From NCBI GenBank assembly GCA_947034885.2, contig OX344752.2, forward strand, positions 620,001 to 684,000: a DNA stretch of 64,000 nt, written 5' to 3'. Under the pieces are notes generated by a model. That model saw nothing but the letters and a program-made list of their open reading frames with translations. It was not told the DNA's origin and did not search any database. Shown here in pieces: positions 9,897 to 38,090 of the stretch (position 1 is its first letter; every line of letters begins with the position of its first letter). The translations under genes and the position numbers were made by a program. This stretch comes from Thuidium tamariscinum (taxonomy: Eukaryota; Streptophyta; Bryopsida; Hypnales; Thuidiaceae).

Positions 9897-9897
9897 T

Positions 9898-10916
9898 CTG
9901 CGAAAAGCAAGTCATATTATCAATTTATATATAAATATGTATATCGTCATATCGGTGATAAGGTTATTGTCCACCAGATCATAGTAATGTAGGATTGTAT
10001 AATGCAAACTTTTTCATGAACATAAAATCTGCGGTTACATAAGAACCTCTCCTTTCCTTATATTTAAGAGGTGATTGTTATTCAAATCCATAAGAAATGG
10101 ATTTCTTCCCCGTCACTAAAGAAAAGTGGTTATCACCGAGTCGATGATATAGCTCTGAGAATCATTACCAGCTATAAGTACGAAACAAACATCCAGGATC
10201 TCGGTCTACTCTGAAACCAGAGTATGCTTACATACAAAGCAGTTATCACCGAGTTGACGATACCCACACTGGAGAAATCAAAACACCCGATTCGTACCCG
10301 GATTAAAGGTCTCCGTTCAAGAGGGCCCTATCGATTATGAACGTCCTAATACTTGCATTCCTATCTCACTAAGTTCAACAGAGAGAATATCATCGACTCG
10401 GTGATACTTTCACAGTCCATTTCAAGCATCCATCCCACTATAGAACATTAGAAGAAGTTTCTACATGAAACTACAAATTAGCATTCTTACGATAAATGGT
10501 TTGTAGATAAGGAGAATTCCTTTAACAGCAACCTACAAACCTGTACGATCTCATAAGCTCAGTTATCCTCGACTCGACGATAATCATTAAAGGAAACCGC
10601 AGAACAATTTCATAACTAAGTCATTACCCCTTGTTGATCCTAACTCCAAAAATGCATAAGCACACACTATCCTCGATTCGATGATACCTTACTACCATAA
10701 CTGACATAGACAATGTAATGTTCCGGAAATTACGCCTACAAATTCGGACATCGCTGTAGACGAACAATCTTCAGACGAATCCCACTAAATCTGTTCTTAC
10801 TTGTAAGATAAGAGCACAAGCCGACTTACGAATACAATATGATCAAAAAACAAAAGGAAACATGCGCAGAAGACACCCTATACTACGCACTGAAGTGATT
10901 ATTACAGTTGGCGTAC
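9898..10916 (-). other. Predicted 5'-leader intron of the transposase gene
   Basis: Read on the minus strand, a donor (GCAG|GTACGC, boundary 10917/10916) and an acceptor (TTTTCGCAG|A, boundary 9898/9897) would frame a 1,019-bp intron directly before the start codon. All six palindromes of the first cluster lie inside it. The upstream leader exon would be near 10917-11300, where a weak TATA-like ATTTATAG is found on the minus strand at about 11307. This is a prediction from splice-site consensus only. Confidence 0.45.
9942..10686. repeat. Palindrome cluster A: six copies of the ~20-bp near-palindrome
   Basis: Sites lie at 9942-9960, 10130-10149, 10243-10262, 10388-10406, 10563-10583 and 10668-10686, spaced 105-188 bp. 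Examples are TATCATCGACTCGGTGATA and TTATCCTCGACTCGACGATA. The shared form is TTATC, two bases, CGA(C/G)TCG, two bases, GATAA, which is nearly its own reverse complement and carries two CpGs. The neighbouring AT-rich sequence between sites is not conserved. The form suggests binding sites for a dimeric protein. Confidence 0.9.
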
Positions 10917-11384
10917 CTGCTAGCAACTGAGGACACTGTCAACGCTCACGACTTAAGGATACTCCATTGTGTGTTCAAGCATTCAAACTTGCTGCCACAA
11001 CAAGAATAAGGTAGATGCCAACACAAAGAAGCCATTGTCTTTGCGGCAAGGCTTTGCTTCGGACTTCCACTTTACAGAAAGGGCGGGGAAAAAAAAGCGC
11101 GAAACGAATCTAATTTGAATTCTTCTTAGGTCCACGTCCCCTACTTCTATAATTTCATGCACCTTCGCTGAACTTTATGAGATGCCTCGTGTCAGCTTTA
11201 AGGCACGAAAATCCGGCTGAACTTTTTTTGGCCGCGTTACAGTTGTCCACTACAAATGGTAGTCGTTGACTTCTCTACTGGTAACTTCGGATTCTTTGAG
11301 GTTTCTATAAATTGACTTTTTGAATGAGCATTGCCCAAGCCTTTCATGTTCTGAAAATCAGGTTTCGGATTTGCGGTTTAAATT

Positions 11385-11590
11385 TAGGGTAAGGTCTTGG
11401 CGTTTGTATTTCTTCCGGTTTTCAGGGTCAGGGATTAAGGTCAAGGTTTAGGGTTTAGGGCTTTCAGGATCAGGGTTTAGGGTTTAGGTTCACGGGTTAT
11501 GAATTAGGGTTTACGTTGTAGGGTTTAGGAGTTTAGGGTCTGTTAGGGAACACTTCAATAATTAAAACCTAGAAACCCTAAATCCCAATT
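11385..11590. repeat. Degenerate plant telomere-like repeats (TTTAGGG)
   Basis: Many copies of TTTAGGG / TTAGGGTTTAGGG occur between about 11385 and 11540, mixed with decayed variants (CAGGGATTAAGG, CAGGATCAGGG). The opposite orientation (AAACCCTAAA) follows at about 11572. A smaller AGGGTTT cluster lies at 16664-16740, in front of the divergent gene. It may be an interstitial telomeric patch or clusters of telo-box promoter motifs. Confidence 0.7.
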
Positions 11591-14194
11591 CATCAAATAA
11601 ATTTTGTTTATTCAGCTTTCAAGTTCAACATATATTAAATTACTAGACTCTTATTTGTAGCAGTAAATTTAGAGAAGTTGCTCGAAATTCTAATGTTTTT
11701 TATCAAACTTTTATCCAAGAAGGTCCAAAAAGTATAAATGAAAGAGAGTCGACATCTACATTGAAGTACAATGTTAATATTCTACAATGAGGGTAATTCT
11801 CAAACTCTTAAAGTGCATAGTCTTTGCCTATTTCAAAAAACAAGGCAACCATGTTATTTTTCCAAATTACCAAGAAGGTGTTTAAATGCATTTTAAAAAT
11901 TAGAAGCACTACATGAAGATTGTATCTAGATTATGTTCAATAATTTCCACGGAATTGTAAGAAGATCACACGAGAAGAAAAATGTAGTGTACTTTGTTTA
12001 AAGCATGCTCTAAATAGAATGGACATGCCGCAATCAGAGTCTTCATGTTTCAAAGAATCATTTCAAACGATAAATCCTGAGTAAAAAAACCTATATAGTT
12101 ACTTCAATTGCCAAAAAAGAAATGCATTGCCACATCAAGATTATGAATAGGTAAGCCTTCATTACTTTAATAATTTCATTCAATAAATGATGAAGTATTA
12201 GTACTATTGCAAAATTCATTGATGATGTCATAGAAGCTTGGGGGGACATTACATAATATATCAAGACATCCAGGGGTATTCAAGCCTCTATAATAAGGGG
12301 GCTATGTAGGTATATTTCTGAATTAAAATAGGCCTTTCTATACTTAAATTTCTGAAGCCACTTCATTGCAATCACCCTTTATTTATCTTGAAATTTGTTT
12401 CGGTGTTGATTTATTGAACTTCACATTAATTGTAAGTAGAAAGAACCTACATTTCCTATTTCAATACAAAGAGAGCAGAACTTGTCATTAAGTTCTTAAG
12501 GACCATGGTTGACTTGGGAGGTGGACATAGGTCTTCTAAACATGTGATTCATTCTAAAGAGACTAGAAAAAGGGTTCTTCCTTCCAACAATTGCATTCAA
12601 ACACTTTCAAATTATAAATACTTACAAAAGCACAACTATTATTTGTCATGCATTAGTTGTCAGTATCATTTATATGTAGAGCTCATTTCTTCTTATATGT
12701 AATCCATAGGATTCGTAATTTTAAACTTAATATACAAGATAATAGTTTGAAGAATTTGGAGATTCTTTTTGACAACCTTACTGTCTTCAAAAATAAGAAG
12801 AAGACAAAGCTATGTATTATTCCCTACCCTTCATTATTTGTAATGGATAAATCCATACTAATTGGCCTAGCAAGTGCGAGTTAGAAGATAAACATTCAGA
12901 GGATGTGTTTGTCCAATTATTTTTCTTTCTCTGAAAGTATATGAAAATGTTGCAATTTGGCACTCTCTCTCGTACTAGTCACTCTCTCGGTTCTCTAGTT
13001 CTCTCATATATCTTAGTGCTGTAATTTCCTTGTGCTCTAATTGTTGGGATCTTATACATTAGGGTTGTAGATTACCCTATCAATACTTTTGCGTTTAATT
13101 TGAAATTTAATTTAATTTTTTTTTAAATAAATTTTGATTTAGTCAAATTTACTTTGGTTTTCTGTAAGAAATCTAATTTCAATGTCTAATTCTCTAAAAG
13201 AGTATCCCAACTTTTGGTCTATTCGGTTGCTGATTGAGAGGTTATCCCAAATGTATGTGTGTATAATTACCGGTGCTCTGTAAGCCATCAATTTGCCTTG
13301 GAAATTCTGAATTAATCGTTGGATTCTAAAGATTTTGTCAATTCAACTAAAGTATGTTTAAATTCATGTATGGTTTTGAATGATCAAGTGAATTTGACGT
13401 TTGTGAATGTAATTTGTTGGGAATGAGTATGTGTGTTATTGAAGAGTCCAATAAATTGGGAGGGTACCTATGGATTGTTGTTCTAATTTCATAAAAATCC
13501 AATTGTAATAATGAGAGTACTCAACATGGCAACTACTCAAGTTTCCACATGTGAAACTTGAAATTAATATTTTGATAATAGAATTTCAATTTCAATTATT
13601 ATAATTTTCCCCTGTTAATTTTTTGTCAGTCATTAATTGAATGTGCAAATAAGCGAACTTGAAGAAAAGGTTTGAGGGAAATATGTTTATAACAGATTCC
13701 TTGGATAATTGTATATGCTCTAACTTGTAATTTGACTTCAATAAGATCCCCTAAATTTATTTTCTAGATACATTATTCAATTCTCAATTTCAAAATACTA
13801 AATTCTAGAACATTTATTTGTGAATGTAATAAATTCATCATAATTGAAAATTCATAAATGATAAAGTTTTCAAGATGGGAGACAATAAATTTTTTTTCAT
13901 CTTCTCGTGCTTTGTATACGGCCAAATACTGACTTATTATTAGTTTGATTTTGCATCTAATTTAGCAAGTATGCTAAACATTATACTAGAACGATGTATG
14001 GAACATATGCTAAAAGGAAATGGAAATAATGAAGGAATTATTTTTACTAAAAAGTTTAATTGTATTTTGAATAAAGAACTTGGCATTTTCATTAAGTTCA
14101 TAGTGCATATACTGTTTGCCTCCTTTTTTCAGAAGTAAAACAAATTTACACAACTAATAGTTATGATTTTAGGAACATGTGATTTTGAGAACAT
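11591..14194. other. AT-rich spacer between the divergent transposon genes
   Basis: This has the low G+C of host intergenic DNA, no palindromes and no credible ORF. It is either the interior of one large element or host DNA between two related elements. I see no terminal repeats or target duplications that decide this. Confidence 0.45.
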
Positions 14195-15008
14195 TGTAAT
14201 GAATTGTATGGATATAAGAGCCAAAAAAAATAGGAAGAGCTTAGGTTGTCATAGAACATTCATGTTCTATGACAAGTTCCATGTCTCACATCCTAAATGC
14301 CCATTTCGTACATGGTGGAATACAAATGGCACCCCTGCCTTTTATTTCTCAAAATACCAAGGTGCCAAATCTCTTACGATACACATTAAGGAAAGTCCCA
14401 AAATTTTTTTAGAAGTTTGGATCTCCTAGATCTTCCATTACGTAGGACAAAAATTTATTGCATGCAAAGCTAATTCAAATTCCCTTTGCATTCAAATGAA
14501 AAAGGCAACCCTAGCCTTCTTTCTCAAAAAATCGAAAAAACTTAGATGTAATAAATTGTATGGATATAAGAGCCAAAAAAAGTAGGAAGAGCTTAGATTG
14601 TCATAGAACATTCATGTTCTATGACAATTTCCATGTCTCACATCCTAAATGCCCATTTCGTACATGGTGGAAAACAAATGGCACCCCTGCCTTTTATTTC
14701 TCAAAATACCAAGGTGCCAAATCTCTTACGATACACGTTAAGGAAAGGCCCAAAATTTTTTTAGAAGTTTGGATCTCTTAGATCTTCCATTACGTAGGAC
14801 AAAAATTTATTGCATGCAAAGCCAATTCAAATTCCCTTTGCATTCAAATGAAAAAGGCAACCCTGGCCTTCTTTCTCAAAAAATCGAAAAAACTTAGATG
14901 TAATAAATTGTATGGATATAAGAGCCAAAAAAAATAGGAAGAGCTTAGATTGTCATAGAACATTCATGTTCTATGACAATTTCCATGTCTCACATCCTAA
15001 ATGCCCAT
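14195..15008. repeat. 352-bp tandem repeat, 2.3 copies, each with a 26-nt inverted repeat
   Basis: Copies start at 14195, 14547 and 14899 (the last partial, ending near 15008), a constant 352-bp period with only a few differences. Each copy carries GTCATAGAACAT, two bases, ATGTTCTATGAC (14248-14273, 14600-14625, 14952-14977), which is a perfect 12-bp inverted repeat. The 88- and 73-codon ORFs here arise only from the repeat copying itself and show no domain, so I do not call them genes. Confidence 0.85.
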
Positions 15009-15689
15009 CTTAAATTTCCATGTCTCACATCCTAAATGAATAATGAATAAAAAAGTTTTAAGTACAATTCTACATGTCTAAGGCTAAGGGGAGTGAAACA
15101 TAACATTGTAAGAGGACCCATTTCTTGGCTAATCAAATAGGGATAATGCCCTTGTCTTCAAATGGTTGTGTGCAACTCCAATTCTAATGTGAAGCTCGTG
15201 AGTGGCTAGTACAAGCCAACAGGGATGTACAGACTACCTTCAATATAGTAACTTTGGAACTTGCTTTGGAAGAGGGTCTCTCGCTTCCGTGAGGGGTAGA
15301 AGAGATCCTTCTAGTAATAGTTAGTAATCTTATGAAATAAGTGAATTTATTCTTCGAATCACCCACTGACATGATAATTCCATCTATTTTTTAGGAGGGA
15401 CAACACAATTTCAGGTGTTGGACATCAACCTTCTATTTCCGGCACTCTGGGGTGACACCGACCCATTTAAAAAGAAAGTCCTTTTTTTTGCCAGAGGAAA
15501 GTAATCTTGTTTTGTCAAACAGTTTTCATTTCTCCATAAAATATGGATGGAGTTGTCAGACTTTGGATGAAAAAGTGCACAAGTATGATGATAATGTTTT
15601 TGATGTCAAACGATAGATGAATGTAGAAATACAATGATTCCCCAAATATGAGGTGATGTGGACCTTGGCACTTGCTAAGAAATTAAAAA

Positions 15690-16750
15690 AAAGGGTGGAT
15701 TGGTAGTGCACCACCCGAGGCAAGGTTCCAGCTCAGCATGGGAGAGCGACCCACAGGTTCAGCAGTAGGGTTGGGCTGCTTTGGCAGCTCGGCGGTCGGG
15801 GTGGGTGTCCATCACCTTCCTCGGACGGAGGTTCACTGTTCCTTGTGTATATACTCTTCGTTCGCGCTCCGTGTGCGTTCTCTCAAGCATTTCTGTCATT
15901 TGAGATTGTTAGTTCTTTTGCGCAACCTGCTTGCTGTCTGAGGTCAGTTGTGTTTGCGCTGTGCGGCACTGCGGTGTAGGGCCCTTCATTTCAACAGTTT
16001 TCTTCAATTTGCGGCTTCGTGGTCGGGGTGGGAAGGCGCAATTTGGACGCGTTTTTTTCATTTCGGTGTTTTTCTGGCGTGGTGTCTGCGGCGTGGTGTC
16101 TGCGGTCAGGCGCGTGGTGTCTGCGCGTGAAGATTCCACCACGCAAGTAAACTCTCCGTGCTTGTGCACCTTGCATTTGCTGATTCTTGTGATGAGGCTT
16201 TCTAGTGTACCTTCTACGAATGCACGAATGCGTGATTTCCAAGGTTTGGTGGTTGTGATCCAAGTTCTGCTTGTTATTCGCGTTGCCTGGTTAGGATTTA
16301 GGATTTGGGAACTCTCTGTGTGTTGCACTGCTATGAATTTTTGTGTGAAGAGCACGGAACTGCGCATGCTATCGAAATGCAAAGACCACGGAACTTGTGT
16401 TCTCCACAGACGGCAAACCACGGAGCAGCGTTTGAATTCACAGAGTTTTTGGAATTCTTGCAATGTGCACAGGTGGATTCGGGAGCACTTCTGCAGCACA
16501 TCAGACTTTTCGACAGAGGTCAATTACTCTTCTGAGTTGTTGTAGGATGTAGTTGTCAGTTGGAAGATTGCTCTAAATGGTTGTTAGCACAGTTCTGTGG
16601 TGTCCGAAAATGTCATTATAGACTCCATTTTCGTTCAAGATTCTTCAGAATCCGTAACAGAAACTAGGGTTTTGAATTAGGGTTTATGGTTTATATATTA
16701 GGGTTTTCGGTTTCCATTAGGGTTAGCACAGGACGCTGCATTAGTAATGG
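15690..16750 (+). promoter_or_regulatory. GC-richer leader/promoter region of the plus-strand transposon gene
   Basis: Composition jumps from AT-rich to GC-rich near 15700. A TATA-like TGTATATACT lies at about 15844, and the first conserved coding exon begins downstream at 17718. Overlapping 204-codon ORFs on opposite strands (15909-16545) have no domain and probably reflect composition. The segment most likely holds the transcription start and leader exon(s). I could not choose the leader donor site with confidence. Confidence 0.35.
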
Positions 16751-16787
16751 ATTGGATTTTCATTTAATTCTTAAATTACAGCCGAAG

Positions 16788-17681
16788 TTATCCTCGAGTC
16801 GATGATAACTGGAAATGGCAGTGTAGAGTCCACAATATAATTTGTAGTCCTTCAATTAAAACTATTCAGAAAATTCAGGGTTGGAGGCTGGATAGTAACT
16901 TACACGAGCCTGGTGTAGGGGAACTGAAGATATGCCATACCTTTTGAAGTTCTGAAAAAAATATCGTCCGTCCAGTCATAACTGAACATTTAGATCACTT
17001 TGGGTGAGTTATCCTCGACCCGACGATAACACCACAAACATGTTAATAAGATAAAATATCATCAATATAGGATTTCTATAGAAACACATCAGAGTGAGTT
17101 CAATCCGACGCTAATGTTGCAAAGGCCAGAGAGCTCTTGACATTATCCTCGAATCGAGGATAAGTCCTTAACGTCTAGAACTATCTAAATCTTGTCAATT
17201 GAGGCTCCCTCCAACGATCCAAGTTAAGCCAATGTCCTCGATTTGTCATCGAGTCGGTGATAATACAATTACTTTTCAACTTGTTGATTATCACCGAGTC
17301 GGTGCTAATTGTATGGTAGAATAATTATCTGAGGTACACAGTAGAGAAGATTTTGGTTAGGTTCCCTTCCTAAATCCGCATAGGTTATACTAAACCCATA
17401 GTGATGATTATAATGTGAGGACATTAACACATTCAGTGAATGTCATTGAGAATAGCTAACAAAGACAAAAACCAAAGTCACTATGATAAAGATGCACTAC
17501 ATGTACATGTGGCAAACGATTTAACTAACCATCCATTTATCCTCGAGTCGATGATAAGGGGATCACTTCACCCAATTTATGGTGATGCTGGAATGAAGGT
17601 CCGCAGTAGTGTACACTTAAACATGAGAGTGAATCCTGCTCTCATTTTCCAATGCAATGTATTATCACCGTATCGAGGATT
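16788..17681. repeat. Palindrome cluster B: seven copies of the ~20-bp near-palindrome
   Basis: Sites lie at 16788-16808, 17009-17029, 17143-17163, 17243-17263, 17288-17308, 17537-17557 and 17662-17681. Two (16788 and 17537) are identical and closest to the consensus TATCCTCGAGTCGATGATA. The cluster ends 36 bp before the splice acceptor at 17717 of the divergent gene. It mirrors cluster A, which lies just before the transposase coding region. Confidence 0.9.
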
Positions 17682-19176
17682 CTGAGTTTTCTAACATTAT
17701 ATTTTTCATTTGTACAGGGGCACAGTAATGGAGATCACAGATGGATACGACTACTCCATTACCTCACACCATATTGAGCCTTTTGTTAACCCCTTGGGTA
17801 ATGAACCTTTCATCGCAGAAATGGCAGACACGTACGGGCTGCTTTGGAAATTCAAAGACCATATTGATACCTGGAGTTTTGGGGTGAACCGATTCAGAAA
17901 CTATGTTTACCTGCGCTACCGCGTGCGAGGTACCAATACGTACATGCCATGGAATCTGAAGGAGAAGGTGATCCTCATTGAGGAACACCAAGCGGACTAT
18001 GTCGTCATCGTACTTCGTGCTGTTGACGAAAATGGAAAGCCTCAGGATCACTGCCATTCCATTGTTGTGGACGTACATTGTTCGCAGGGTAAATTCGATC
18101 TGTCCAATCTCATGACGTTTCTGGAGGGCTCTCAGATGGAGTCCTTGAATGAGCAATTTGAGAAATCAGGTTACGTCCCATGGAAAAATGGAACTACAAA
18201 GTCAATTGCTGCAAGATTGCGTTTGATTTTCCAAACGCTGGACCGCTATGCATTGGAGCATGCTGAAAAAGAGCCTGCTATTGGTCGCAGCACGGACCTT
18301 GTTTCAGGATCCCGGTAGCAAACCGAGAGTCGAAAACCCCGATCATCTTCTGGTGCAGGTTCAGGGGGTAGGGCAACAAGACTTGGATCAACAAGGTCTG
18401 AGCCCAAAAGACAGGAGCCTCCATCATCTGAAGGCGGGGAATCAAGCCGAAAGAGGAGAAAAACTGGAACCAGTGCACCTGCAAGGGGCTATAGCTCTGG
18501 ATCCGCTCTCACTATAGTTTCTATTCCTACGGCCGAAAGCAAGGATGAGGTGCCAGTGCATGAGAAGTTCCAGAAAATTCAGAAACAATTCTGGGCGGAG
18601 CACAGGACGTGCTTCTTGTTCGACGAAGCTGCAATGCAGATTGACATCAAACAATGTATCATAGCACGTCCGCACTATGTCATTCGGACATTGCAGAGAG
18701 ACATAGTGGATGCTGTGAAGAAAGAGCTTGTGCAACTCATAGATGTGAAGCAGCGGCAGAAAGTTTGCCTTACCCCTGTCGACAAGACGAAGAGACTACT
18801 CAAGACGAAACCTCAGTCGTGGGACGAAATCAAGAACGGCCAGTTCATGATAATCAACGGTCAGCATAGTATAATGGCTTCTCAGGAGCTTCAGAAGGCT
18901 GGCTGTGGAGAAACACGGAAAATTGAGTTGAAGACATGGGACGCCTATATTGTGTGGACTCTTGATGAAAGCAAGCTGAGGAACATATTCAAGTTCTACA
19001 ACTGCACTAACCACCTTGACCATGCCCAGCCCATGTGGGGGAATCAAATAATTAGTTGCAGAAGAATTTGGATAACATACAAGCGTCCGACTGACACTCG
19101 CATTGAGGACGCAACGAGGAAAAACAAGGCAGTGTGGGATCTGGAACAGTACAAGGTAAGTATTGCTTTGGACTCG

Positions 19177-19875: not shown

Positions 19876-19880
19876 CACGA
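19876..19880. repeat. 5-bp target-site duplication CACGA, left copy
   Basis: CACGA precedes the TG of the left LTR. The matching copy follows the CA of the right LTR at 33025-33029. Its perfect state fits a recent insertion. Confidence 0.9.
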
Positions 19881-27650: not shown

Positions 27651-29258
27651 TCACTTCTCTGGATTTTCCGTCCCAGCAGTGTGTCCGTAATTGAGCGCGG
27701 TCTGCTCCCTCGGTAGAATTTGCACCTTCTTGTACACCGGTCTTGGCTGTACCGGCTTGGGACATTGCTCCTCCTGATGTCCATATTCTTGGCAATTCTG
27801 GCACGGAAGAGTTCGCGGAGCACCCTGCCCCAGTCCTCTGTTGGGACAGGCGTTGGCATAGTGTCCTGGCTCTCCACACCCGTAACAGATAACCACTTGT
27901 CTATCCGGATAGCCAGAGGTTCGGATCGGCTGCTGCACCATCATTCCTTGACTTGATCCTGGTAGGAAGTTCCGGCTCAATATGTTGGGCCGGATTGGTA
28001 CTGCAATACCCTTCCCTCGCCCGTACGTTGGCTGAACTTGGTACACTTCTTCTTCCTCTTCTTCTGCCATGGTGTAGTAGATCTCCTCTTCCGGAAACAC
28101 ATACTGCACTTGTTTCTGGGTGATTCTCTGGCATTCGCTCGGGTAGTGACCCGGTTCTCCACATCTTCCACACCAAACGTTGGAGCACGAGGTCGGAATT
28201 ATCCGCCTAGGCTTCCGGTTCTCAGCAAGGTTGACCTTGATCGCCTCCAAAGATTGCTGAATGCTCTTCATCATATTCTTCGAATCCGTATCTTCAGTCT
28301 TTACCTTCACAATGGTCTTCCCTCGAAGGCCCTTCGATTTCGAGGAACGTCGAGGAGGTGAATCGCTCCGCTCCTCATCCGAACTTGATGAACTTGGATC
28401 GGAAACTTCCGTTCCAGAAGTGTCGGAACTACTTTCCGTCTCCGAAGTCTTCCGGTGGTGCTTCTTCCGGTTTTTCTTGTGCTTGCCCTTCTCTTTCTTC
28501 TCATTACTTCTAAGGGACTCCCTTAATGACTGAGCTGAATTTTCGTAGTTGGCAGCAGCATCCATGGCCTCTCTCAAAGTCCTCGGTCGCGTCTGACGGA
28601 TCAGAAATCCCATGGATTTTGGTAAACCAGCAACGTACCACTCCACCTGCAAGCTGGGAGCAATCTCAGTAGTCAGTTTCTGAATGAGTGCCTTAACCCT
28701 TTGTCCATACTTACGAACGGATTCTGATGGCCTCATAGTAAGAGTACTCAACCGTCCCAAGGCTCTGGCTTCTCCCCCCACTTCACGGAATGCCTGCAAG
28801 AATTCCGTTCTCAATTGGTTCCAATCATTTCGGACCGGATCCGTAATATCTTGGTACCATTTGAGAGCTTCTCCCTTTAACAGTCCTTGAAAGATCCTTC
28901 TCCGGGCCGCCTCATTCTCTTGATTGGCTATTGCCGTTGATTCAAACTCGCAGAGCCAGTCATCCGCATCTTGACTTCCGTCGCCCTTGAAACGCTTGTA
29001 TCTTAACCGGGTCATGATGTCTTCGTTCTCCAGAATCGGATCTTCCCGCTCTTGCTCTAATTCCCGGTCAGGAGATGGAGGCGAATCTACAATTCTAGGA
29101 TCTACTTCCTCTCTGGATCCGGTTCCTAGATCTACAACAGGATGATCTTCCGGATCGGAGCTCTCCGGATTGCTAAGATAAGGTCCGGATGATCCTTCCG
29201 CCTGCTGGCTTGGACCAAATCGTTCAGACCTCCTCACTTTCCGTGCCCCCTTTTTCAT
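27651..29258 (-). CDS. gag: gypsy gag protein (535 aa)
   Basis: Residues about 80-235 form the capsid-like retrotransposon Gag region (LLKGEALKWYQDI; FLQAFREVGGEARALGRL). A Lys/Ser/Asp-rich linker follows. There are then three CCHC zinc knuckles: CGRCGEPGHYPSEC, CYGCGEPGHYANAC and CQNCQEYGHQEEQC. It is expected to form the particle and package element RNA. It begins shortly after the primer-binding site and is uninterrupted. Confidence 0.92.
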   Translation of the reverse strand: MKKGARKVRRSERFGPSQQAEGSSGPYLSNPESSDPEDHPVVDLGTGSREEVDPRIVDSPPSPDRELEQEREDPILENEDIMTRLRYKRFKGDGSQDADDWLCEFESTAIANQENEAARRRIFQGLLKGEALKWYQDITDPVRNDWNQLRTEFLQAFREVGGEARALGRLSTLTMRPSESVRKYGQRVKALIQKLTTEIAPSLQVEWYVAGLPKSMGFLIRQTRPRTLREAMDAAANYENSAQSLRESLRSNEKKEKGKHKKNRKKHHRKTSETESSSDTSGTEVSDPSSSSSDEERSDSPPRRSSKSKGLRGKTIVKVKTEDTDSKNMMKSIQQSLEAIKVNLAENRKPRRIIPTSCSNVWCGRCGEPGHYPSECQRITQKQVQYVFPEEEIYYTMAEEEEEEVYQVQPTYGRGKGIAVPIRPNILSRNFLPGSSQGMMVQQPIRTSGYPDRQVVICYGCGEPGHYANACPNRGLGQGAPRTLPCQNCQEYGHQEEQCPKPVQPRPVYKKVQILPREQTALNYGHTAGTENPEK

Positions 29259-29375
29259 GGATTAGAAATCTCTATTTCTATAAGAAAGCTAACTCCGAGA
29301 AATGGTAAACTAAAATGGGGAAAACAAGACTGTCCCTTCTATTTCCTGTCGCAACGAAGCCGATAGCTTTAGAAT

Positions 29376-29392
29376 CCCCGGCAGCGGCGCCA
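29376..29392 (-). other. Primer-binding site complementary to tRNA-Asp
   Basis: The minus strand reads TGGCGCCGCTGCCGGGG, 11 bases after the 5' LTR. It matches the 3' end of plant tRNA-Asp except for one position that can pair as G:U. tRNA-Asp priming is known in Athila/Tat-group elements. Confidence 0.8.
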
Positions 29393-29403
29393 GATTTTTG
29401 CCA

Positions 29404-32400
29404 TGTCGCAACACAGGGTAAGTAAATTCCCTGTTATACTCACAAAAATCACTGTAGAGTATAACTAAGTGACTCTAAAGATCGAACCCGCGAGATTCTG
29501 TGAAGTATCTGGCTTAGTTAAGCGATTAAGATAGGACAGCTCCCAAAACTCTATAATCCGGTTCTAGATCTAGAACCGGAAATACACAAATAACCCGAGA
29601 CGACAACCCGTTATCCCGTTCAAAAACTGATATTCTAGCAATCTGGTCCGGAACGGATCCGTTCCTTCACTTTTCCGGTTTCCCGGATTTTATCCGTTCC
29701 GTCAGACTGCAACGGATCCGCTCCCTAACGAGTTCCGCTCCTGGTTTCCTCTTCGGACCAATCCGTTCCGGATGATCCGTCCACACCCGTTCCTCAATCC
29801 GGTTTGGTTTTGCCTCTGTTTTACCATCAGAGGGGTCGCCGCTTGATTTTGTGAGCGGTAGGCCCACCGCTCCTTCCGTGACTTATAGTGGCTGAAGACC
29901 CACTTTCTACCCGTTAATTCTAAAATTACTTCAGATCCGGTTTGATCCCTCACAACAATCCAGACAAAGATCCGGACTGTAGGTCACACAGAGATCCCCC
30001 GTACGATCTTCTCATACTACAACGACTTTGACGCGACTTTCCGTTCCTGGGGAGCCAGGTGGCTACAAGTGTATCCGTCCGTTCCAACGTCAACCAGAAC
30101 TCTTCCGTTTGCCACAAAGACGATGAGACCTCACAAGAGATCGGACACTCAACTGGGTTTCCCACCCAGGAGCTCTAGCATGATTAAGGAATCCCTCCCT
30201 CTCGTCTAGCCTAACAACGGCTTTCTCACCCGGAATCTTAAGTCCTAGAGGCGCTGAGGCGCTAGAGTTACACTCCCAACTCTTCTCTACCCGTTCTCAT
30301 ATACTCGGACACGGAAAATAAGCACCAAAGGGAGAATGTCGCCTGCAAAACCACTTGCGCCTTCCTAACTCCGCGTCACGCCGCCCTGCCAAACTCGGGA
30401 GATACACACGCAAAGCAAGAGAGAATAAAATACACAAAGATAATGCAAAGGAAAAGACTCCCAGTCCACCGCGAGGGGACTGACTTAAATAATGGGCAAA
30501 AAAGCAAAAAGCGCCATACAAGTCCGCCGCGATTAACGCTCGGCGGATCCGTTCCTACCTACTTCTGAACCGGAACGGATTCCAACCCGCTCCAAGTTCC
30601 TAAACCGGACCGGATTTCCTCCTGATCCGTTCCTAAGTTAAAAACTACAAAAACAGGAAAGTCCTAATACCTACGTATCCGGCTCTGCTACCCTAGATCC
30701 TATAGTCGGGCTTTCCGCCCTACTGATCTGCTCGAAGACCTCGGTGAGGTTCCGATTCCGTTCTCCGTCTGTTGCAACCGGAGCTCCAGTAACCGGACTC
30801 GCAGGAGACTCCGACAACTGAATTGCCGCCTCCCGGTTGCCCGTTGACGCTCGCCCTGACTTCTTGGATTGCGGCGTCCTGTCCTTCCCTGGTCTCTGAG
30901 GCAACCCTTCGGAAATATCCGGTAGAGACAGATCGGAGAGTCTGACCAGAATTTCCGTCAGTCTCCGGCTACAGTCTTCCATCCGTTCGGCCGCCTCCCG
31001 AACCTTCACCAAAGTCGTCTCCACCTTTTCGGAGAAGTCGGACAGAATCCGGACTATCCGGCTTCCGGATAGTTTCTTCTCCTTGTGCACCTCTTCGTCA
31101 AACAGTTGAGCCCGGATGACAGCCGATCCGGGTTCCCCGAATGTTGCCTTCACGTGCTCCGCCACTTTGACGGTCTCCGCCGCCATCTCCTTGGTAGCGG
31201 CCTCGTTGTCCCTGAGAACAAGGAGCTCCGCCTTCAAACCGTCAACTTCCTCCTGAAGTTTCCGGTTTTCCTCCTCCATCTTGGCGAGATCCGCAGGCGA
31301 GGCGATGCAATTCCCTACCACGGTCGGGAGAGTATGATCCGGTTTGCCATTGACCATCTCCGCGATGTTCTCCAAGACGATCCGCTTGACCTCCCAATCC
31401 GCTCGGATGTTGCACAGGATTTCCGTCAGTTGCACGAACGGATCACTGGGATCCGTTTCCTCTGCTGCTGGTTCGGCCTGACCCGGTTCGGATGGTCCTG
31501 CTCTGCCTTCCGTTCCCGGATTGTGTCGGACCGGAGGAGATCCCCTCGTGTTCGGCGGTGTGGTCTTCTGCCGCTTCACGAGCGGAACTTCCGGTTCCTC
31601 TCCCTTATCCGAGTCCTCCCGCTCTGTCTCAGACTCGGAGCTCTCCTCATCATCCGTTGACGTCTCCCCGTACGTCAAGACTATCTTCTGGGTGTGCCAC
31701 GTCTTCTCTTCCGTATCCGAAAGGAGCTGTAGATGGTGGTAGAGGTGGAAGAGGTAGGGGGAGATCGGAGTTGCCCTACTCCCTCCGAGGTTCTTCAATA
31801 ACCGGGTGATCAGGTCCTGTATGATCCGGCCCCAGTCCACTTTCCGGTCTCCGATCAGCGCACCGAAAATGGTGTTGGCCAGGCCGATCGTGATCCGGGT
31901 TGGTTTCTCCGGATGAAGGACCGGAAGCAGAAACTTCAACAGGCGCCTATGCCTGTCTTCGTTGCAGTCCATGATCCGGTATCCGTCCTTCGGGTGAGGG
32001 GTGCCACTGAACTTGTTTTGGAGGAAGTCTACCTTCCTCCCGGCCGGTCCGTGCCCCTGGTGTTTGAACCCGTATACGGCCCTCCAGTGCGCCTCCGTCC
32101 ATTTGTGCGGCATTCCCCGCGCCGTGTTGTCGAACTGATTCGACACCTTGCCCTTCAGCTCCTTCACCATCCGCTCCTCCTTGAAACCCCAGGGTATCTC
32201 TGCTAACCCTAGACACCCCATTGCGGTTAAGTCCGCCATCAAGTTGCTTTTCTCCGGCTCTGTGGAAGGGATGAGCGGAACTACTTTCTTCAGCTTTATC
32301 CCTGAGGGTGGGGGTGTAGTGGACTCGGTTCTCTTCCGGCGTAGCTGCGGCATGGCAACTATCCGGGAAACTACCTCACTGCTCTCCTAGCCGCACGTCC

Positions 32401-33024
32401 CGTTCCTCACACACACTCACAACACAACTACAAAAGTAATCCGCCCGTAATAACCACCTGCACATACACACACACACTCCTCTCCACACACCAGCGTCTC
32501 AGCGCACAGTCTGAAACCCGCGCCGCTGACAACTGCCCGCTCTGACAAAACACCCGCTGCTAATACTGACAGCCGCGTCACAGAAAATTGCGCCACCAAA
32601 CACGCGCGGAAAACCAACTCACAGAAAAGGCGGAAAACGCTGAGGGTTGAAAAACACACAACGAAGCGCCTGAGAGCAAATGGGCCAACTGAAAATGTCA
32701 GGCCTTATATAGTTTCCAGAAATGGATCCGGTCTTCCGTTCCTGATCATCCGTTCCCGTTCTCATCCGATCGGTCCAAGTCCGAAAATCATCCGTTCCGT
32801 TCTGGGACTGAATCCGGATAGAATCCGTTCTGTAGGGTCTGGAATTTTTCCGTTCCGGTATTCCGTCGTAATAAACCGGAATTATTCTGCCACCGGTCTC
32901 TACAACATTATCTGGTACTACTTCTGGATCTTACCCATTCCCTGAACAAATCCGGTTGCTAAATTTTCCACTTTCCGCTCCATACTGACTCTAAATGGAA
33001 AGATCAAAAATATGTCTTGCCACA
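29404..33024 (-). repeat. Long terminal repeat, right copy (5' LTR of the element)
   Basis: 3,621 bp, the same length as the left copy, with about five single-base differences seen by eye. Its TATA-like box (32703-32712 on the minus strand) is the likely element promoter. Transcription from it would run through the 560-codon ORF before reaching gag. Confidence 0.95.
30671..32353 (-). CDS. LTR-encoded ORF, 560 aa (right LTR, promoter-proximal copy)
   Basis: Same protein as the copy at 21148-22830, with no amino-acid difference noticed. Because this LTR is the 5' LTR, this copy would be the first long ORF of the genomic transcript, lying about 350 nt after the TATA-like box and about 1.4 kb before gag. 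Gag would then need a splice, a second promoter or an internal start to be translated. Confidence 0.6.
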   Translation of the reverse strand: MPQLRRKRTESTTPPPSGIKLKKVVPLIPSTEPEKSNLMADLTAMGCLGLAEIPWGFKEERMVKELKGKVSNQFDNTARGMPHKWTEAHWRAVYGFKHQGHGPAGRKVDFLQNKFSGTPHPKDGYRIMDCNEDRHRRLLKFLLPVLHPEKPTRITIGLANTIFGALIGDRKVDWGRIIQDLITRLLKNLGGSRATPISPYLFHLYHHLQLLSDTEEKTWHTQKIVLTYGETSTDDEESSESETEREDSDKGEEPEVPLVKRQKTTPPNTRGSPPVRHNPGTEGRAGPSEPGQAEPAAEETDPSDPFVQLTEILCNIRADWEVKRIVLENIAEMVNGKPDHTLPTVVGNCIASPADLAKMEEENRKLQEEVDGLKAELLVLRDNEAATKEMAAETVKVAEHVKATFGEPGSAVIRAQLFDEEVHKEKKLSGSRIVRILSDFSEKVETTLVKVREAAERMEDCSRRLTEILVRLSDLSLPDISEGLPQRPGKDRTPQSKKSGRASTGNREAAIQLSESPASPVTGAPVATDGERNRNLTEVFEQISRAESPTIGSRVAEPDT

Positions 33025-33029
33025 CACGA
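33025..33029. repeat. 5-bp target-site duplication CACGA, right copy
   Basis: It matches 19876-19880 exactly. Confidence 0.9.
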
Positions 33030-33858
33030 CACAAGTTCACTTCTGCCTCGTGGGACTTCTTGATCACGCACCCGAAGCCTGAATATTACAAGAAGCGCTT
33101 ACGAAATGAGGGTTGGCTGAAGCGTTTAAAAGACCTCGAGAAGCAAAACCCCGAGGCTCATCACATGTTTACAAGGTTCATGAAGTTGAAGTACCAACTT
33201 CCTGAGTCCACTGGGGGGGTGCCGGGTGCAAGTGTGAGGGGTGGACATCAATGAGAGGGCGCTCGTCACCAGTTCCACCTACAGTTATATCAACAGGGAG
33301 GTTAACTTCGCCCTCGTGGACTTCCGAGAAGCTCCGAGAGCGGAAGCCACCGAAACAGATCGCCCGATTGACCCCTTCTTGAATTTCCTTCGTATCAGTC
33401 TCCATCATAGAATGACAGAGCCAAATATCTGGCTCTTCATTTTGAAGAACAACAACGACTTGAAGGCGGCGAAGGCATTTGCAACCAAACATCTTTCAAC
33501 GTACGAGTACGTTCTCTCCACGTATAGTCCAGGAAGAGCCGAGCTGTTGGGCAACCTTACCAACCGAATGCCAGCCGGAGACGTGACAATGATGTTCCTC
33601 TTCAAGAAGAACAACGCCTTTGCATCCTCCAGTCGTGTCTTCTTGATGGAAAAATACTCCACCTTGGTAGAGAATACGTATTACTGGGATTGGGGTAAGA
33701 CCACGGAGGCAAAGTGGAGGATAGAGTCGACGGAACTGCGCATGGAGTTCTACCTGCAAATGCTTCAAGCGTTTGCAAGGCCGGATGAGAACGTCCTCGG
33801 CATTTTTGTAGGTGCGAAGTTCATGCTCGCGGCAAAGGTAATAGTTTTTTAATTGTAG

Positions 33859-33977
33859 TTATCCTTGCATCGGTGATACCATCCTCCATTCCTTCCTTCA
33901 GTTGTTAATCATGTACGTCCTGATGTACATGACTATTTTGGTAGCTAGAGTACTCGAGTATCATCGAGTCGATGATA
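33859..33977. repeat. Palindrome pair D inside a predicted intron
   Basis: Sites 33859-33878 (weaker) and 33959-33977 (TATCATCGAGTCGATGATA, a perfect palindrome) both lie within the intron 33838-34057. Confidence 0.85.
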
Positions 33978-35198
33978 CTAGAGATCAATTCCATTGTCTT
34001 TTGTCCTACAATTCATTCTATATATATTCTCATTTATTGCCTCATATGTTGTTGCAGATGTTTGGAGCGTATTATTATGGCTTTGTCGATCGGGGTGACA
34101 TGAAGGCGTATCAGGCTATTTCCTATCTTGCTGAGAAGATGGACTGGAGGGACTTCATGATGTCAAATTCCCCCTATTCCATGACCTACGAGAAGCCAGC
34201 AACTCAGAGCCTCGTGGTAGTTCGTTCGAACTCCCCTGCCTCACCTCCCATGATCTCGCCGGACACGGAAAACACCCCAGTCTCTCGACCAAGGGAGATT
34301 GTCGGGCCTCACGTGACATCAGATCCAGGTGTCCAAGGTCTGGACGAATTTGGAACAAATACATTCCAAATTTACTTGTGGATGGCGAATGCAGACGTGA
34401 CTACACGAACTGCAAAGCCAACTGCGCAAGTAGCTGATCAACCAGACTTAGAGTTGGTTGATTCGCAAGCCCCGCCGGTAGCACCGTCCAACATTGTGAT
34501 TGAACTCGAAATTGAAGAAGAGGCGGAGGATAAAATGGAGACGGACACCGAGTGGGAGAGAACCGAGCGCGGGCGGACAGAGGAGGAATACGAGGACCCT
34601 CTCGACTTCAGAGACCGGGACGACTCCTTCCTGAAGGAGGGCTCCCCGGACGACGACGTCGTCATGCAAGAAGTAGGGCGCAATGACGGCGTCGGAGAGG
34701 GGGCCTCTACCAAACAAATCCCTGCCGCAGACGCCGTGGACAAGGACGGGAAGCCCCTGTTCTACGACTTCGCCGATGATGATGATCCACTGATCATCCT
34801 CACGAGTCTGATAACGACGATGAGGACCACGACGGTGCGCCAAAGCAAACTGAGTTGAAGCCGCTACTCCTTCCTGATGGCAGAGTGATGAAGGTGGAAA
34901 AAGACCACTGGAAGGAAGAGGAAGAGAAGCGAGACAAACGCGCAGCTCGGAGGGCTGAGAATGCAAAGAAGGACAAAGAGTTGGCGGATGCGCGGGCACA
35001 AATTATCGAGGTGCAGCAGGAGTCGCAGCAGAAGTATTCTGACCTCTCCAGTCAATTCGAGGAGCTGAAAAAGATGTTTCAATCTCAATTCAGCCAAGGA
35101 GGGACTCCACCAATGTCGCAAGCTTCAACGACAACGTCTTCAGTTCCGGCACCTCCCGGTCCTACGGAGGTCGTAGTCCTCGTGGCTGGACTTCCTCA

Positions 35199-35383
35199 TC
35201 CTCGACTCGAGGATAACGCTCACGTTACATCATTGGCCCACGATGAGGTCGTCGCGTGCACCCCAACGTCACAGGTGGCTCCGACTGTGGTCTCACCTGA
35301 TGTGGGTGCCTTTCAGATTACCCATCTGCAACCACGAAGGCCTGCACTAGAGGAGGCTCGGGACTATCGTCGACTCGACAATA
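35199..35383. repeat. Palindrome pair E, within coding sequence
   Basis: ATCCTCGACTCGAGGATAA (35199-35217) and TATCGTCGACTCGACAATA (35365-35383) fall in the low-complexity C-terminal coding region. They are the first good matches outside predicted introns. Confidence 0.75.
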
Positions 35384-36143
35384 TTCTTGAAGAGGGGGTG
35401 GAGAAGGACTTAGCGACAGCTGCACCAGAGTGTCGGGTGTCTGAGCAAGTTCAAGTCTCAGCGGAAGTGTCTTCTCTCGTGGACAATGAAGAGAAGCTAG
35501 ACTACGGAGAGAATGAGGCTGACGACAATGTGCCTGCAGAAAGCGATGTGGATGCTCTCGCTGCTGCTCTGGGAGAGCAGGCCGCCCTCGATGCGACTGA
35601 GTCCGCACAGGTACTAACTTCTGACCCTTACTGCTTTGATTGACTTCAGAAAACTTGAAGTCTAGTTAGCGATAGTAAGTGTTGGAGGAAATCATGAATC
35701 TCATTTGTACTCATGGTTTCTGGCAGGAGAAGGTTGCCACTCCTTAATTACCTGGCGCTGACGGAGAATCCGTCTGCGGCGGACAACATGTACAATAGTG
35801 TAGAGTAGAGAGCTCAAGAGTGTATAGTTTTTGGCGGACTAAAATTTTGAATTGTATATACTAAGCGACATCAATAAAAATATATACTTTACGATCTTTA
35901 AAGTATGAACGGTGTCTAATTGTACTTCACTGTCCATGTTTTTTGGCTCAGCTTGAAAAAAATGTAAACTTGCATCGCCCGCTACCCACGAAAGCACTTC
36001 CTACTGGGAGGATGCAGTCGAGTAGAGAATTACAATGCGTATCTCCGCACTCTGCCTTTACCAGTTCCGCATGTAACCAGGTAACTCCAAATTCTTTGTT
36101 GTCCTGCTTTTATCAGGTAGGATCGGAGGGGCGAAGAGAAGTC

Positions 36144-36944
36144 ATGCGGAGGATAGACCGTCCTATGATGCCTCCGCCCAGGAGGAAGTGGCTAAACATT
36201 GTCTTCGACCTGAACGGGGTGTTGTGCCACACCGTAATGAAGTCCTACGGCGACAAATTCAAACCGTACAAACTCGAAGACAATGTTCTGAGCCATTGAA
36301 ACCCCACGATCATCGGCCAGAAGGCAGTGTTCGCGCAACAGAACGTCGCCGAATTTCTTCGACACGTTTCGGAGATAGCGAACAAAATTGTAGTGTGGTC
36401 GTCCATGGCCAAGCGGAACGCGGAACCGATCGCGGAATTCTTGTTCCGGGGGTGCAGACCGCCCTACAATGTCTTAGGCCAAGAGCAATGCACAAAAATA
36501 GAAATCGCTCCTGGCAAATTCTTTCGTTGGGGAAAGTCGCCCTTGTTCATGAAATTCCTCGAGGGCGATCTCATGGGCACTAACAGTCAGGGCGTGTCGT
36601 TCTTTGCGCATGACACCATCCTCATTGATGACTCTCCCGAAAAGAGTGTCCTCAATGTGAATGGGAACACGCTCCTTCTGGAGTCGTGGACCCACGATAT
36701 GCGCAGGGACGACGTGCTCATGGGGCAGCTCCTGCCGTGGATCCGCCGACTCCACTCGGAGTGCGACCCGGAAGGGGAGTTGCTCGAATACGTCGACGAC
36801 AACCGGATCGGCGTCAATCCGCTTGGCCGCAACGACGCCCACTATAAGGAAATAATGGGAGCAATGAGGGAGTCCGCCGAGGTCATGGGGGCTCGATTTG
36901 ATAGCTTCAACACGGGTCTCATTGCACCGAGGCGACGTTGTTAG
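36144..36944 (+). pseudogene. FCP1/NLI-interacting-factor-like HAD phosphatase in the transposon
   Basis: From ATG 36144 the frame encodes KWLNIVFDLNGVLCHTV, matching HAD motif I of the FCP1/SCP family but with Asn in place of the second Asp (DLNG instead of DxDx). KIVVWSSMAKRNAEPI (motif II region) and ILIDDSPEKSVLN (motif III) follow. The protein is about 266 aa and ends IAPRRRC. One in-frame TGA (36297-36299) interrupts it about 50 codons in. FCP1-like enzymes dephosphorylate RNA polymerase II tail serines; the changed motif suggests altered or lost activity. It follows the ParB/methyltransferase-like gene in the same direction and has an AATAAA at about 37036. It could be cargo or a captured host gene. 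Confidence 0.65.
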
Positions 36945-37115
36945 AATTAGACTTTTTTGTAGTGGCGCGCATTCAGGGAGCACAAGCATATCGTATCGTA
37001 TCTTATTTTTTCATGTATGACATAATTTTTTGTAAATAAAATATATTTAGTTGTATATATCATATTCTTTCCTTGTTTTGAAAGTTGTCTTCGACCAAAT
37101 GAATGCCAATTTCAC

Positions 37116-38090
37116 ATGTACCCATGTACTCATGGAGAGAAATCGACGGTGGGTTCTTGTAACCATTGTGCAATGCAGGTTTCAGCCTTCCGCTCTGTTC
37201 CAACACACAAAAGACAGAGGCTCACGAGGAGCCTCCTTTCGGGGTCGCTCAAGTCGAGGTCCATCGACAGTTCCGAATCCGACGGTGGAAGCTGTGAAAC
37301 GGCTCCCGTGTCCAAGCCTTACATGTTGCGTTCTGCTACTGACGCGGCGTCCGCCGCCATAGACTTCACCAAGGGAAACATCGAGGACGGCGTCGTGAAC
37401 AGTCCCCCGAGTCGCACATCGGGGAGGACTCCCATCTGCTCGCCTTCGCCCTTGAGGCGGGCATCCTCGAGTCGAGGACCCTCTTCGTCGCTCGATCGGC
37501 GGGCAGATGCTGCGATGAGTCGAAGATTAGAACTTCCCGACGACGATGTTGGAGGGGATCCTCGAGGCGAGGATGATGTACCATCGTTTTCTCCGGTGCC
37601 CACTAGCCGCACCAACGGAGTGAAGTCGACTAGTGGACCAGTAACGGGCACAGTGGTCTAAGCTGCCGCGACAGATGAAACGCATTGTTCACCTCGACTC
37701 CACGATAATCCAACCCATTCATCACTGTCCGCGGGAGCTAGACGTCTCTCATCCTCGGATAGTCTTTTTCGTCAACGAATTATTAGAGAGCATCGACGTT
37801 CTCTCGAGGCCAAGTCCGAGGGAACTATTCCTGCGAACGTAGGCGGTGCGAAGGCGTCGGTGCCAAGGCCGCCTCAACAACATTCCAAATCCCTTTCCAC
37901 TACAGGAGTTCCTCAAAGCGCGTGCAAATCGAAACGAAAAGCCACTGCATCTCTTAGTGTCAGCGAGACCGGTGCTCTTTACAATGGAAGTGGCCCGCAT
38001 TATTCTTCTCGACGCAAGGACATCTTAAGAGGTCTTGCGAAGCTTAAAGCCATAGAGGCAGGAAAGGCTATTTCCGCAACCAATAAGTGA
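37116..38090 (+). pseudogene. Ser/Arg-rich ORF of unknown function, one in-frame stop
   Basis: The frame is open from 37116 to 38090 except for a TAA at 37659-37661. The predicted product is rich in Ser, Pro, Arg and Asp (PICSPSPLRRASSSRGPSSS), with a basic C-terminus (SRRKDILRGLAKLKAIEA). A splice-acceptor-like ATGCAG|G lies at about 37176, so the true start may differ. No domain is recognised. Three motif-like palindromes lie inside it. It has the same direction and similar G+C as the two genes before it and is probably the last gene of the element. Confidence 0.4.
37461..37708. repeat. Palindrome group F, degenerate copies
   Basis: Sites at 37461-37480, 37557-37577 and 37688-37708 keep the CTCGA(G)TCGAGGA core but have lost parts of the outer TTATC/GATAA arms. 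No copy is seen to the right of here, which helps place the right part of the element near 38.1 kb. Confidence 0.6.

Follow-up and report, generated by a model that had tools for sequence, protein, structure and literature searches.

Bacterial ParB/parS systems combine clustered palindromic sites with a ParB protein, and in VANDAL transposons the transposase, VANA, is a MULE protein. The motif of VANC21 is the 9-bp sequence YAGTATTAY, whose copies all point the same way within rapidly evolving tandem repeats (PMC5735166, PMC10398659); it is found upstream of VANA and in the introns of VANB and VANC (PMC5735166). In En/Spm, the element-encoded DNA-binding protein TnpA has multiple short sites, and methylation has been suggested to hinder its binding (PMC2613891). 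ParB and methyltransferase genes have been reported from giant transposons of algae: Sola1-1_Ec32 of Ectocarpus, itself a giant element, carries a ParB and DNA methyltransferase accessory gene opposite the transposase gene, and its authors suggest that ParB-methyltransferase proteins bind their own transposon (PMC12477816). Sola elements generate a 4-bp target-site duplication (PMC10741241).

We analyzed a stretch of 64,000 nucleotides from the moss Thuidium tamariscinum (OX344752.2, positions 620,001-684,000, forward strand; in the following, the window), which contains one copy of a giant DNA transposon (Table 1). Members of the family are about 19 kb long, end in 25-bp terminal inverted repeats and are flanked by 4-bp target duplications; they carry a DUF7869 transposase gene and, on the opposite strand, a long spliced cargo gene. 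The window copy was delimited by alignment with the end-complete copies c (C1:16430748-16449439; 18,692 bp; target duplication CGTA) and e (C1:22635333-22655124; 19,792 bp; AGAT), whose right ends are the reverse complement of the left repeat with 2 and 3 mismatches. The window copy is broken by in-frame stops and a Gypsy insertion and lacks its right end, homology to copy c ending at 38281, 327 bp short of the right end of c. The nested Gypsy element encodes gag, RT, RNase H and integrase and is a later insertion, outside the palindrome system. A preliminary description of this DNA had assumed a 28-kb element with the limits of the motif span; minus the Gypsy insertion, the element region measures about 18.7 kb, and it extends from the left repeat at 6451 to the end of homology, wider than the motif span.

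Target duplications of 4 bp were also found for a distant-lineage DUF7869 element (AATT) and a 255-bp non-autonomous derivative (AACC). Together with the 25-bp inverted repeats they would agree with a Sola-type element; the sole named domain of the transposase is DUF7869. A VANDAL/MULE assignment does not apply, as DUF7869 is the only Pfam domain matched by the transposase and the target duplications are 4 bp long. The transposase of the window copy is 92% identical in copy c and 80% identical in copy e, and is perhaps shortened because its reading frame stops about 70 residues before that of copy e; a literature search on DUF7869 found no paper. Cargo exon 3 is a single frame in copy e and two frames in the window copy. 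The NIF-like gene matches Pfam PF03031 (E 3.9e-8 at 36300-36944; E 2.5e-10 in copy c), and the copy c version of the basic ORF is 49% identical to that of copy e over 278 aa.

Table 1 Features of the giant transposon copy in the window (positions within the window; a dot marks features given without orientation).
Feature	Position	Strand	Remarks
Giant DNA transposon, window copy	6451..38281	.	Right end lost; later Gypsy insertion inside
Left terminal inverted repeat	6451..6475	+	AAGGCCTTATTCGTTAAAATGAGAC; 25 bp, identical in copies c and e
DUF7869 transposase gene	7239..9911	-	891 codons; Pfam PF25273, E 9e-45
Palindrome cluster, 6 sites	9942..10686	.	9942, 10131, 10244, 10388, 10564, 10668; upstream of transposase gene
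Palindrome cluster, 7 sites	16789..17681	.	16789, 17010, 17144, 17244, 17289, 17538, 17663; upstream of cargo gene
Cargo exon 1	17728..19155	+	N-terminal domain and NGQH region; in-frame stop here; end set by comparison with copy e
Presumed intron 1	19156..19355	.	Copy e borders ACG/GTACGT and GCGCAG/A
Palindrome pair	19178, 19284		In presumed cargo intron 1
Cargo exon 2	19356..33837	+	Methyltransferase-like fold (low confidence); split by Gypsy insertion
Nested Gypsy LTR retrotransposon	19881..33024	-	3,621-bp LTRs, 3,616/3,621 columns identical; target duplication CACGA
Presumed intron 2	33838..34057	.	AAG/GT donor visible in 11/12 contexts examined
Palindrome pair	33860, 33959		In presumed cargo intron 2
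Cargo exon 3	34058..35640	+	Acidic, coiled-coil-like tail; start by comparison with copy e
Palindrome pair	35197, 35365		In coding frame, cargo exon 3
NIF / CTD-phosphatase-like gene	35865..36944	+	Split by in-frame stop in window; 5' limit approximate
Basic, low-complexity ORF	37026..38087	+	Two frames in window copy
Palindrome triplet, weak	37462, 37557, 37689		In basic low-complexity ORF

A scan of the window for TATCNTCGANTCGANGATA, allowing 3 mismatches in its 16 fixed positions, yielded 22 palindrome sites, in agreement with the earlier count of about 22 near-palindromes in six clusters (6+7+2+2+2+3), each within 1-2 bases of its first placement. Seven of them match exactly, 12 when 1 mismatch is allowed and 15 when 2 are allowed; the three rightmost match only at 3 mismatches. 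Thirteen lie upstream of the transposase or cargo gene, four in the presumed cargo introns and five in coding sequence, three of the latter being weak. As previously described, the motif is absent (0 sites at up to 3 mismatches) from the window flanks (6,450 and 25,719 bases), and the nested Gypsy element has none either; an equal motif density in host DNA, sampled here as these 32 kb of flank, was thus not seen. The 19-mer of the first reading gave 24 strand-matches in the window compared to 0.01 expected from shuffles, and in 200 Markov-control runs on the 18.7-kb element the number of sites averaged 0.07 and never exceeded 2. Across the 363-Mb genome, TATCNTCGANTCGANGATA occurs exactly at 1,225 sites, where about 0.14 would be expected if GC is taken as 0.40, and three control patterns (reversed, core scrambled, spacing +1) had no match. 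The control patterns, shuffles and Markov runs rule out a chance origin. An origin as a by-product of tandem repeats was likewise rejected, 21-bp tandems being present in only four loci.

The motif is 19-21 bp long and, in its extended form tTATCNTCGANTCGANGATAa, consists of two inverted half-sites with a centre spacing fixed at 1 bp. A matrix built from 149 non-redundant sites is palindromic and sharply limited, with flanking positions below 0.1 bit, and this bears out the symmetric arms noted before. Motif columns are also better conserved than their surroundings. Between the window copy and copy c, the fixed motif columns of the transposase-upstream cluster are 97% identical, compared to 74-76% outside. 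In the cargo-upstream cluster the values are 90% and 68%, or only 72% and 60% with copy c as the reference. CpGs were retained at 24 of 28 positions inside motifs versus 14 of 32 outside, a difference that is confounded by constraint acting on the motif itself.

Association with the element was assessed for 43 sites of one exact 19-mer at a distance of 25 kb and compared to random placement, with 150 of 428 cargo candidates scored. Listed cargo genes lay within this distance of 37 of the 43 sites (2.8 at random) and listed DUF7869 matches within this distance of 14 (2.1 at random), so that the motif, as proposed, accompanies elements whose products include a DUF7869 protein and one bearing a ParB-like signature. 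Each of the 12 cargo loci examined, chosen to cover a range of 52-79% in protein identity, has a site with no more than 1 mismatch, and 11 of them have an upstream cluster; a site after exon 2 is present in 13 of 14 stretches from relatives. Among the matches listed, 50 sites fall on C1: 36 have a listed element gene within 25 kb, a further 8 fall in element-homologous stretches and 1 lies 7 kb from such a stretch, while no element was tied to the other five, which form two clusters, in the short stretches examined. About 160 copies with 7-8 exact sites each would account for all 1,225 exact sites.

Identity between the two DUF7869 lineages is only 24-30%. No site at up to 3 mismatches was present in four 10-kb regions of the distant lineage, one of which is a complete 5.2-kb transposon. 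Over-represented words in four regions of this lineage gave no comparable motif. At L027, one of 25 distant-lineage DUF7869 loci, two sites with 2 and 3 mismatches are present; a listed cargo gene lies 7 kb away. The predicted co-occurrence with DUF7869 genes therefore holds for the cargo-bearing lineage, whereas the site-free distant regions rule out the motif as a general DUF7869 property.

All 14 aligned cargo members covering the respective part of exon 1 contain NGQH, which we take to be a ParB-like signature. The ParB_N Pfam model had no match at E up to 10 in this genome and none among the cargo family members; it did have matches in 11 of 14 control genomes. The moss element resembles ParB/parS in its clustered palindromes and in the ParB-like signature of one of its proteins. 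Its palindrome is a different one, and the ParB/parS-like system considered earlier finds no support in the ParB_N search. Exon 2 gave Foldseek probabilities of 0.92-0.97 to the N6-adenine methyltransferases CcrM, M1.HpyAVI and MboIIA, at E about 0.03 and with low TM-scores. Such enzymes are expected to carry the catalytic motifs DPPY and GSGT, which look degenerate (DxRxxP, GxKF) in the aligned pieces covering them. No match over the cut-off was obtained for the N6_N4_Mtase profile in the genome or for the cargo protein against Pfam, NCBIfam and PHROGs; searches of the cargo exons against PDB sequences gave nothing useful, and the best phage tblastn match had an E of 0.8. A phmmer match of exon 1 to 5uqd (E 0.0023) was disregarded as it covers a serine-rich linker. 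The two cargo structure models were of poor quality (mean pLDDT of 52 and 48, respectively); the NGQH region was among the poorly modeled parts, and exon 1 gave no PDB match of note. The ParB label draws on a short motif and the methyltransferase label on a weak match at the fold level, and both are tentative.

We tentatively favor, at somewhat under even confidence, the reading that the palindrome is the recognition site of an element-encoded homodimer, most likely the cargo protein, which would keep the element expressed in a VANC-like fashion. The long cargo protein, with its ParB-resembling region and a methyltransferase-like fold with degenerate motifs, is the most likely candidate among the proteins of these giant DUF7869 transposons. 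It would occupy the upstream clusters of the transposase gene and of its own gene as well as the sites within its introns, and binding is predicted to keep the regulatory DNA of the element accessible or unmethylated, or to drive expression otherwise, an outcome analogous to that of VANC proteins on VANDAL elements. The earlier comparison with VANC stands with regard to layout: like VANDAL21, the moss element is a multi-gene DNA transposon with a short, family-enriched motif upstream of the transposase gene and in accessory-gene introns. It differs in its transposase and in its motif, a palindrome nearly constant across cargo proteins down to 52% identity. As VANC targets diverge fast, this constancy counts against the favored reading, and so do the 5 of 22 window sites that are coding and the 5 of 50 listed C1 sites not tied to an element.

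As the two DUF7869 lineages are so distant, the transposase of the cargo-bearing lineage could equally be the binder, for transposition or self-regulation, comparable to TnpA/TNP1 of CACTA elements. The moss element has multiple short sites and a proposed element-encoded binder in common with En/Spm. In favor of the transposase, the motif goes with this transposase lineage, six sites lie upstream of its gene, and the 255-bp derivative, which has the same type of ends, contains one exact site at a distance of 18 bp from the right inverted repeat. However, this site is present in only one of the four 255-bp copies among the matches listed (C1 below 23.07 Mb), several sites reside within introns of another gene and the complete distant-lineage transposon lacks the motif, so that we consider binding by the transposase unlikely. 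A plain transposase-end site was set aside as unlikely because the nearest sites are 3.4 kb (left) and about 0.9 kb (right) from the ends of copy c, with copy e similar, whereas CACTA sites are subterminal. Quite unlikely, too, is an operator at which an element protein represses the transposase and cargo genes, thereby limiting copy number. Clusters upstream of both divergent genes would suit it, and in four of the families sites are spaced in tandem at 21 bp, roughly two turns of the helix, which agrees with cooperative binding, but intron and exon sites far from promoters are not readily explained.

Some transposons recruit host factors, and teloboxes, to which host factors bind, are likewise clustered near the regions that hold the palindromes. 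That the element exploits a host transcription factor site nevertheless appears improbable given the empty 32-kb flank, the 45 of 50 listed C1 sites in or near element genes or homology and the number of copies that would cover the genome-wide count. Highly improbable is a role of the sites in marking the element so that the methyltransferase-like cargo protein methylates its adenines or cytosines. CcrM, one of the weak fold-level matches, acts at GANTC, and both TCGA and GANTC are contained in the palindrome; a published cargo relative is moreover predicted to make 4mC or 6mA (PMC12477816). Yet the GANTC core is frequently broken (GACCC in L054), the catalytic motifs look degenerate and no Pfam methyltransferase match exceeded the cut-off.

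Returning to the favored cargo-protein reading, the moss element shares with Sola1-1_Ec32 a size of about 20 kb and a long accessory gene opposite the transposase gene with ParB-like and amino-methyltransferase-like regions. It differs in that its methyltransferase motifs look degenerate and Pfam detects neither domain. The parts of the Sola1-1_Ec32 report considered here name no target DNA motif, and a literature search for a moss or Sola palindrome gave nothing relevant among the matches listed; the DNA of the moss element itself offers a candidate target motif for a ParB-methyltransferase-type cargo protein, arranged much as in the VANC system. A more specific version, doubtful at present, is that the lineage has a parS-like or VANC-like means of recognizing itself, in which a fusion of ParB and a pseudo-methyltransferase binds the fixed 21-bp palindrome at intervals along the element and shields it from silencing, recognition having been kept and methylation lost. 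If true, sequence-specific anti-silencing would have arisen independently of VANDALs, and the palindrome would be the first DNA target for accessory proteins of the ParB-methyltransferase type in algal and plant transposons. The candidate target makes the proposal of self-binding directly assayable, and such an assay would show whether transposons invented sequence-specific self-protection more than once.

A scan of the window (C4:620001-684000) confirmed the 22 near-palindromic sites of 19-21 bp and the positions at which the preliminary description had placed them. Sites, scored as exact or with up to three mismatches in 16 fixed positions, were absent from 32 kb of window flank and from the inside of the Gypsy element, and a Markov control gave a mean of 0.07 sites versus the 22 observed in the window. 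Across the genome (363 Mb in 19 contigs), the exact pattern TATCNTCGANTCGANGATA occurred 1,225 times, with about 0.14 occurrences expected by chance at an assumed GC content of 0.40. The reversed pattern, the pattern with its core changed from TCGA to TGCA and the pattern with one base added at its centre were not found anywhere in the same genome. In three element copies examined at full length, exact sites number 7, 8 and 8; allowing up to three mismatches raises these counts to 22, 23 and 18. The palindromic site array is real, strongly conserved and concentrated in one element family.

By alignment with the window, this giant transposon measures 18,692 bp in copy c (C1:16430748-16449439) and 19,792 bp in copy e (C1:22635333-22655124), two end-complete relatives. 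It ends in 25-bp terminal inverted repeats and is flanked by 4-bp target duplications (CGTA in copy c, AGAT in copy e). Opposite the DUF7869 transposase lies a long spliced accessory gene with putative ParB-like and methyltransferase-like regions, the cargo gene, which is broken in the window by the Gypsy insertion and an in-frame stop and is likewise interrupted in copy c. Identity between the window copy and copy c jumps from about 70-83% in the left two thirds to 91-97% in the right third, which suggests gene conversion or a mosaic origin. The NIF/CTD-phosphatase-like gene is transposon-borne.

Features of the giant transposon, its surroundings and related elements
Feature	Position	Strand	Remarks
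Window copy of giant transposon	starts at 6451		about 0.3 kb missing at right end
DUF7869 protein gene	left part of element	minus	
Tandem repeat	14195-15008		352-bp period; in spacer between transposase and cargo gene
Cargo gene	right part of element	plus	read as three main exons
Gypsy insertion in window copy	19881-33024		LTRs identical at 3,616/3,621 columns
NIF/CTD-phosphatase-like gene	35865-36944	plus	3' of cargo gene
Basic ORF	after NIF/CTD-phosphatase-like gene	plus	
Kinase-domain ORF	49282-51936		right flank; apparently host
255-bp non-autonomous derivative	L071:408-662 = C1:5319439-5319693		4-bp duplication AACC; one exact site
Complete cargo-less DUF7869 transposon	L041:3779-8992		5,214 bp; perfect 20-bp inverted repeats; duplication AATT

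Six of the 22 window sites lie upstream of the transposase and seven upstream of the cargo gene. Two each fall into presumed introns 1 and 2, with limits derived from copy e, in which canonical splice signals enclose the intron sites; five are in coding sequence (two in exon 3, three weak ones in the last ORF). Among 12 cargo loci chosen to span 52-79% identity, with L045 and L046 nearly identical to one another, all had a site with at most one mismatch and 11 had an upstream cluster (exception: L053). A site follows exon 2 in 13 of the 14 stretches covering this exon (exception: L067), and an AAG|GT donor occurred within 60 bp in 11 of the 12 contexts displayed. Seven adjacent site pairs in L050, L051, L052 and L054 are spaced by exactly 21 bp, or about two helical turns, which fits side-by-side binding. 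Telobox clusters (AAACCCTA) occur near the two site clusters of the window (11449-11573 and 16665-16699) and at matching places in copy c (6653-6736 and 11660-11715). Teloboxes point to a plant genome, and one may guess at a moss.

The motif matrix was built from 186 sites, reduced to 149 after removal of near-identical contexts; information in the 16 fixed positions is inflated because sites were chosen by consensus. Positions 0 and 20, neither used in site choice, are T/A in 61%, all flanks beyond them stay below 0.1 bit, and the variable arm base agrees between the arms in 54% of sites versus 26% expected. Between the window copy and copy c, fixed motif columns in the transposase promoter are 97% identical versus 74-76% outside, and those in the cargo promoter 90% versus 68% (72% versus 60% with copy c as reference). 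The promoters of copies e and c gave 91% versus 52% and 90% versus 64%, values for which the aligner was possibly anchored by the motif itself, and blastn found no alignment of these copies across both promoters and the spacer. CpGs were retained in 24 of 28 cases inside motifs versus 14 of 32 outside. With motifs masked, promoters had an observed/expected CpG ratio of 0.47-1.0, the spacer one of 0.60-0.71 and the flanks one of 0.44, which is weakly compatible with less methylation at promoters.

Linkage was scored against 150 listed matches each of 428 cargo and 853 DUF7869 candidates. For 43 sites sharing an exact 19-mer, a listed cargo gene was no more than 25 kb away from 37 (2.8 for random placement), and a listed DUF7869 match from 14 (2.1 for random placement). 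Likewise, 36 of the first 50 sites on C1 have a listed element gene within 25 kb, and the remaining 14 were followed through five short stretches. In L073 and L075, which contain seven of them, a translated search detected similarity to the transposase region; one further site lies 7 kb from L075 and one (in L071) inside a 255-bp inverted-repeat derivative, and for the five in L072 and L074 no longer stretch of homology was seen within 1.4 kb. The derivative has ends of the same type as the giant transposon and, counting itself, is present in at least 40 near-full-length copies, the other 39 being 84-89% identical to it; one of the four listed on C1 below 23.07 Mb has an exact site. Contig C11 (17.5 Mb, about 5% of the genome) holds 76 of the 150 listed cargo-gene and 47 of the 150 listed DUF7869 matches; one may guess at a non-recombining sex chromosome.

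The association with DUF7869 genes proposed in the preliminary description holds for the giant, cargo-bearing lineage and not for a distant one. Compared with the window protein, 25 of 30 DUF7869 loci show 24-30% identity and five 62-71%. Scanned with 1.5-kb flanks, mostly ending short of the promoter, one of the 25 (L027) and one of the five (L030) had sites. A listed cargo gene lies 7 kb from L027, which together with L011 makes up the two distant loci that have such a gene at 25 kb or less. Four 10-kb distant-lineage regions, each with one ORF of at least 200 aa, contained no site at up to three mismatches. One holds the complete transposon of L041, which supports DUF7869 as a transposase; element ends were not found in the other three. 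DUF7869 transposition there thus needs no palindrome. It is the giant DUF7869 lineage, with its cargo gene, that the palindrome accompanies.

Cargo exon 1 contains NGQH, which we take to be part of a ParB-like signature, in all 14 aligned members covering that region. The structure model of exon 2 is of low confidence (mean pLDDT 52), and its strand-helix order would fit amino-methyltransferases. Foldseek placed CcrM, M1.HpyAVI and MboIIA among the top matches (probability 0.92-0.97, E-values 0.02-0.04, TM-scores <0.35), the lowest E-value belonging to an ALBA2-DNA complex. The expected catalytic methyltransferase motifs appear degenerate, and searches of Pfam, NCBIfam and PHROGs returned no ParB or methyltransferase domain over cut-off for the cargo protein. 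Among the 150 listed cargo exon matches, 59 lack an internal stop, 33 of these with at least 480 open codons.

A passage of PMC12477816 describes a Sola-1 element of 21.5 kb with a ParB-plus-methyltransferase gene of 1,104 aa on the opposite strand, and cites such cases in green and red algae. Sola elements, according to parts of PMC10741241, have 4-bp duplications, occasionally exceed 15 kb and are present in Physcomitrella, for which an excerpt of PMC9033089 lists Sola1. Literature searches covering open-licence PMC papers turned up no target motif described for accessory proteins of the ParB-methyltransferase type. Further comparators are VANC, the anti-silencing protein of Arabidopsis VANDAL elements (described in sections of PMC5735166 and PMC10398659), and TnpA, the En/Spm protein of CACTA elements (in a section of PMC2613891). 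The palindromes are best read as candidate binding sites of an element-encoded dimer that may act in a VANC-like role; we infer both its effect and its identity, the cargo protein being the most likely binder.
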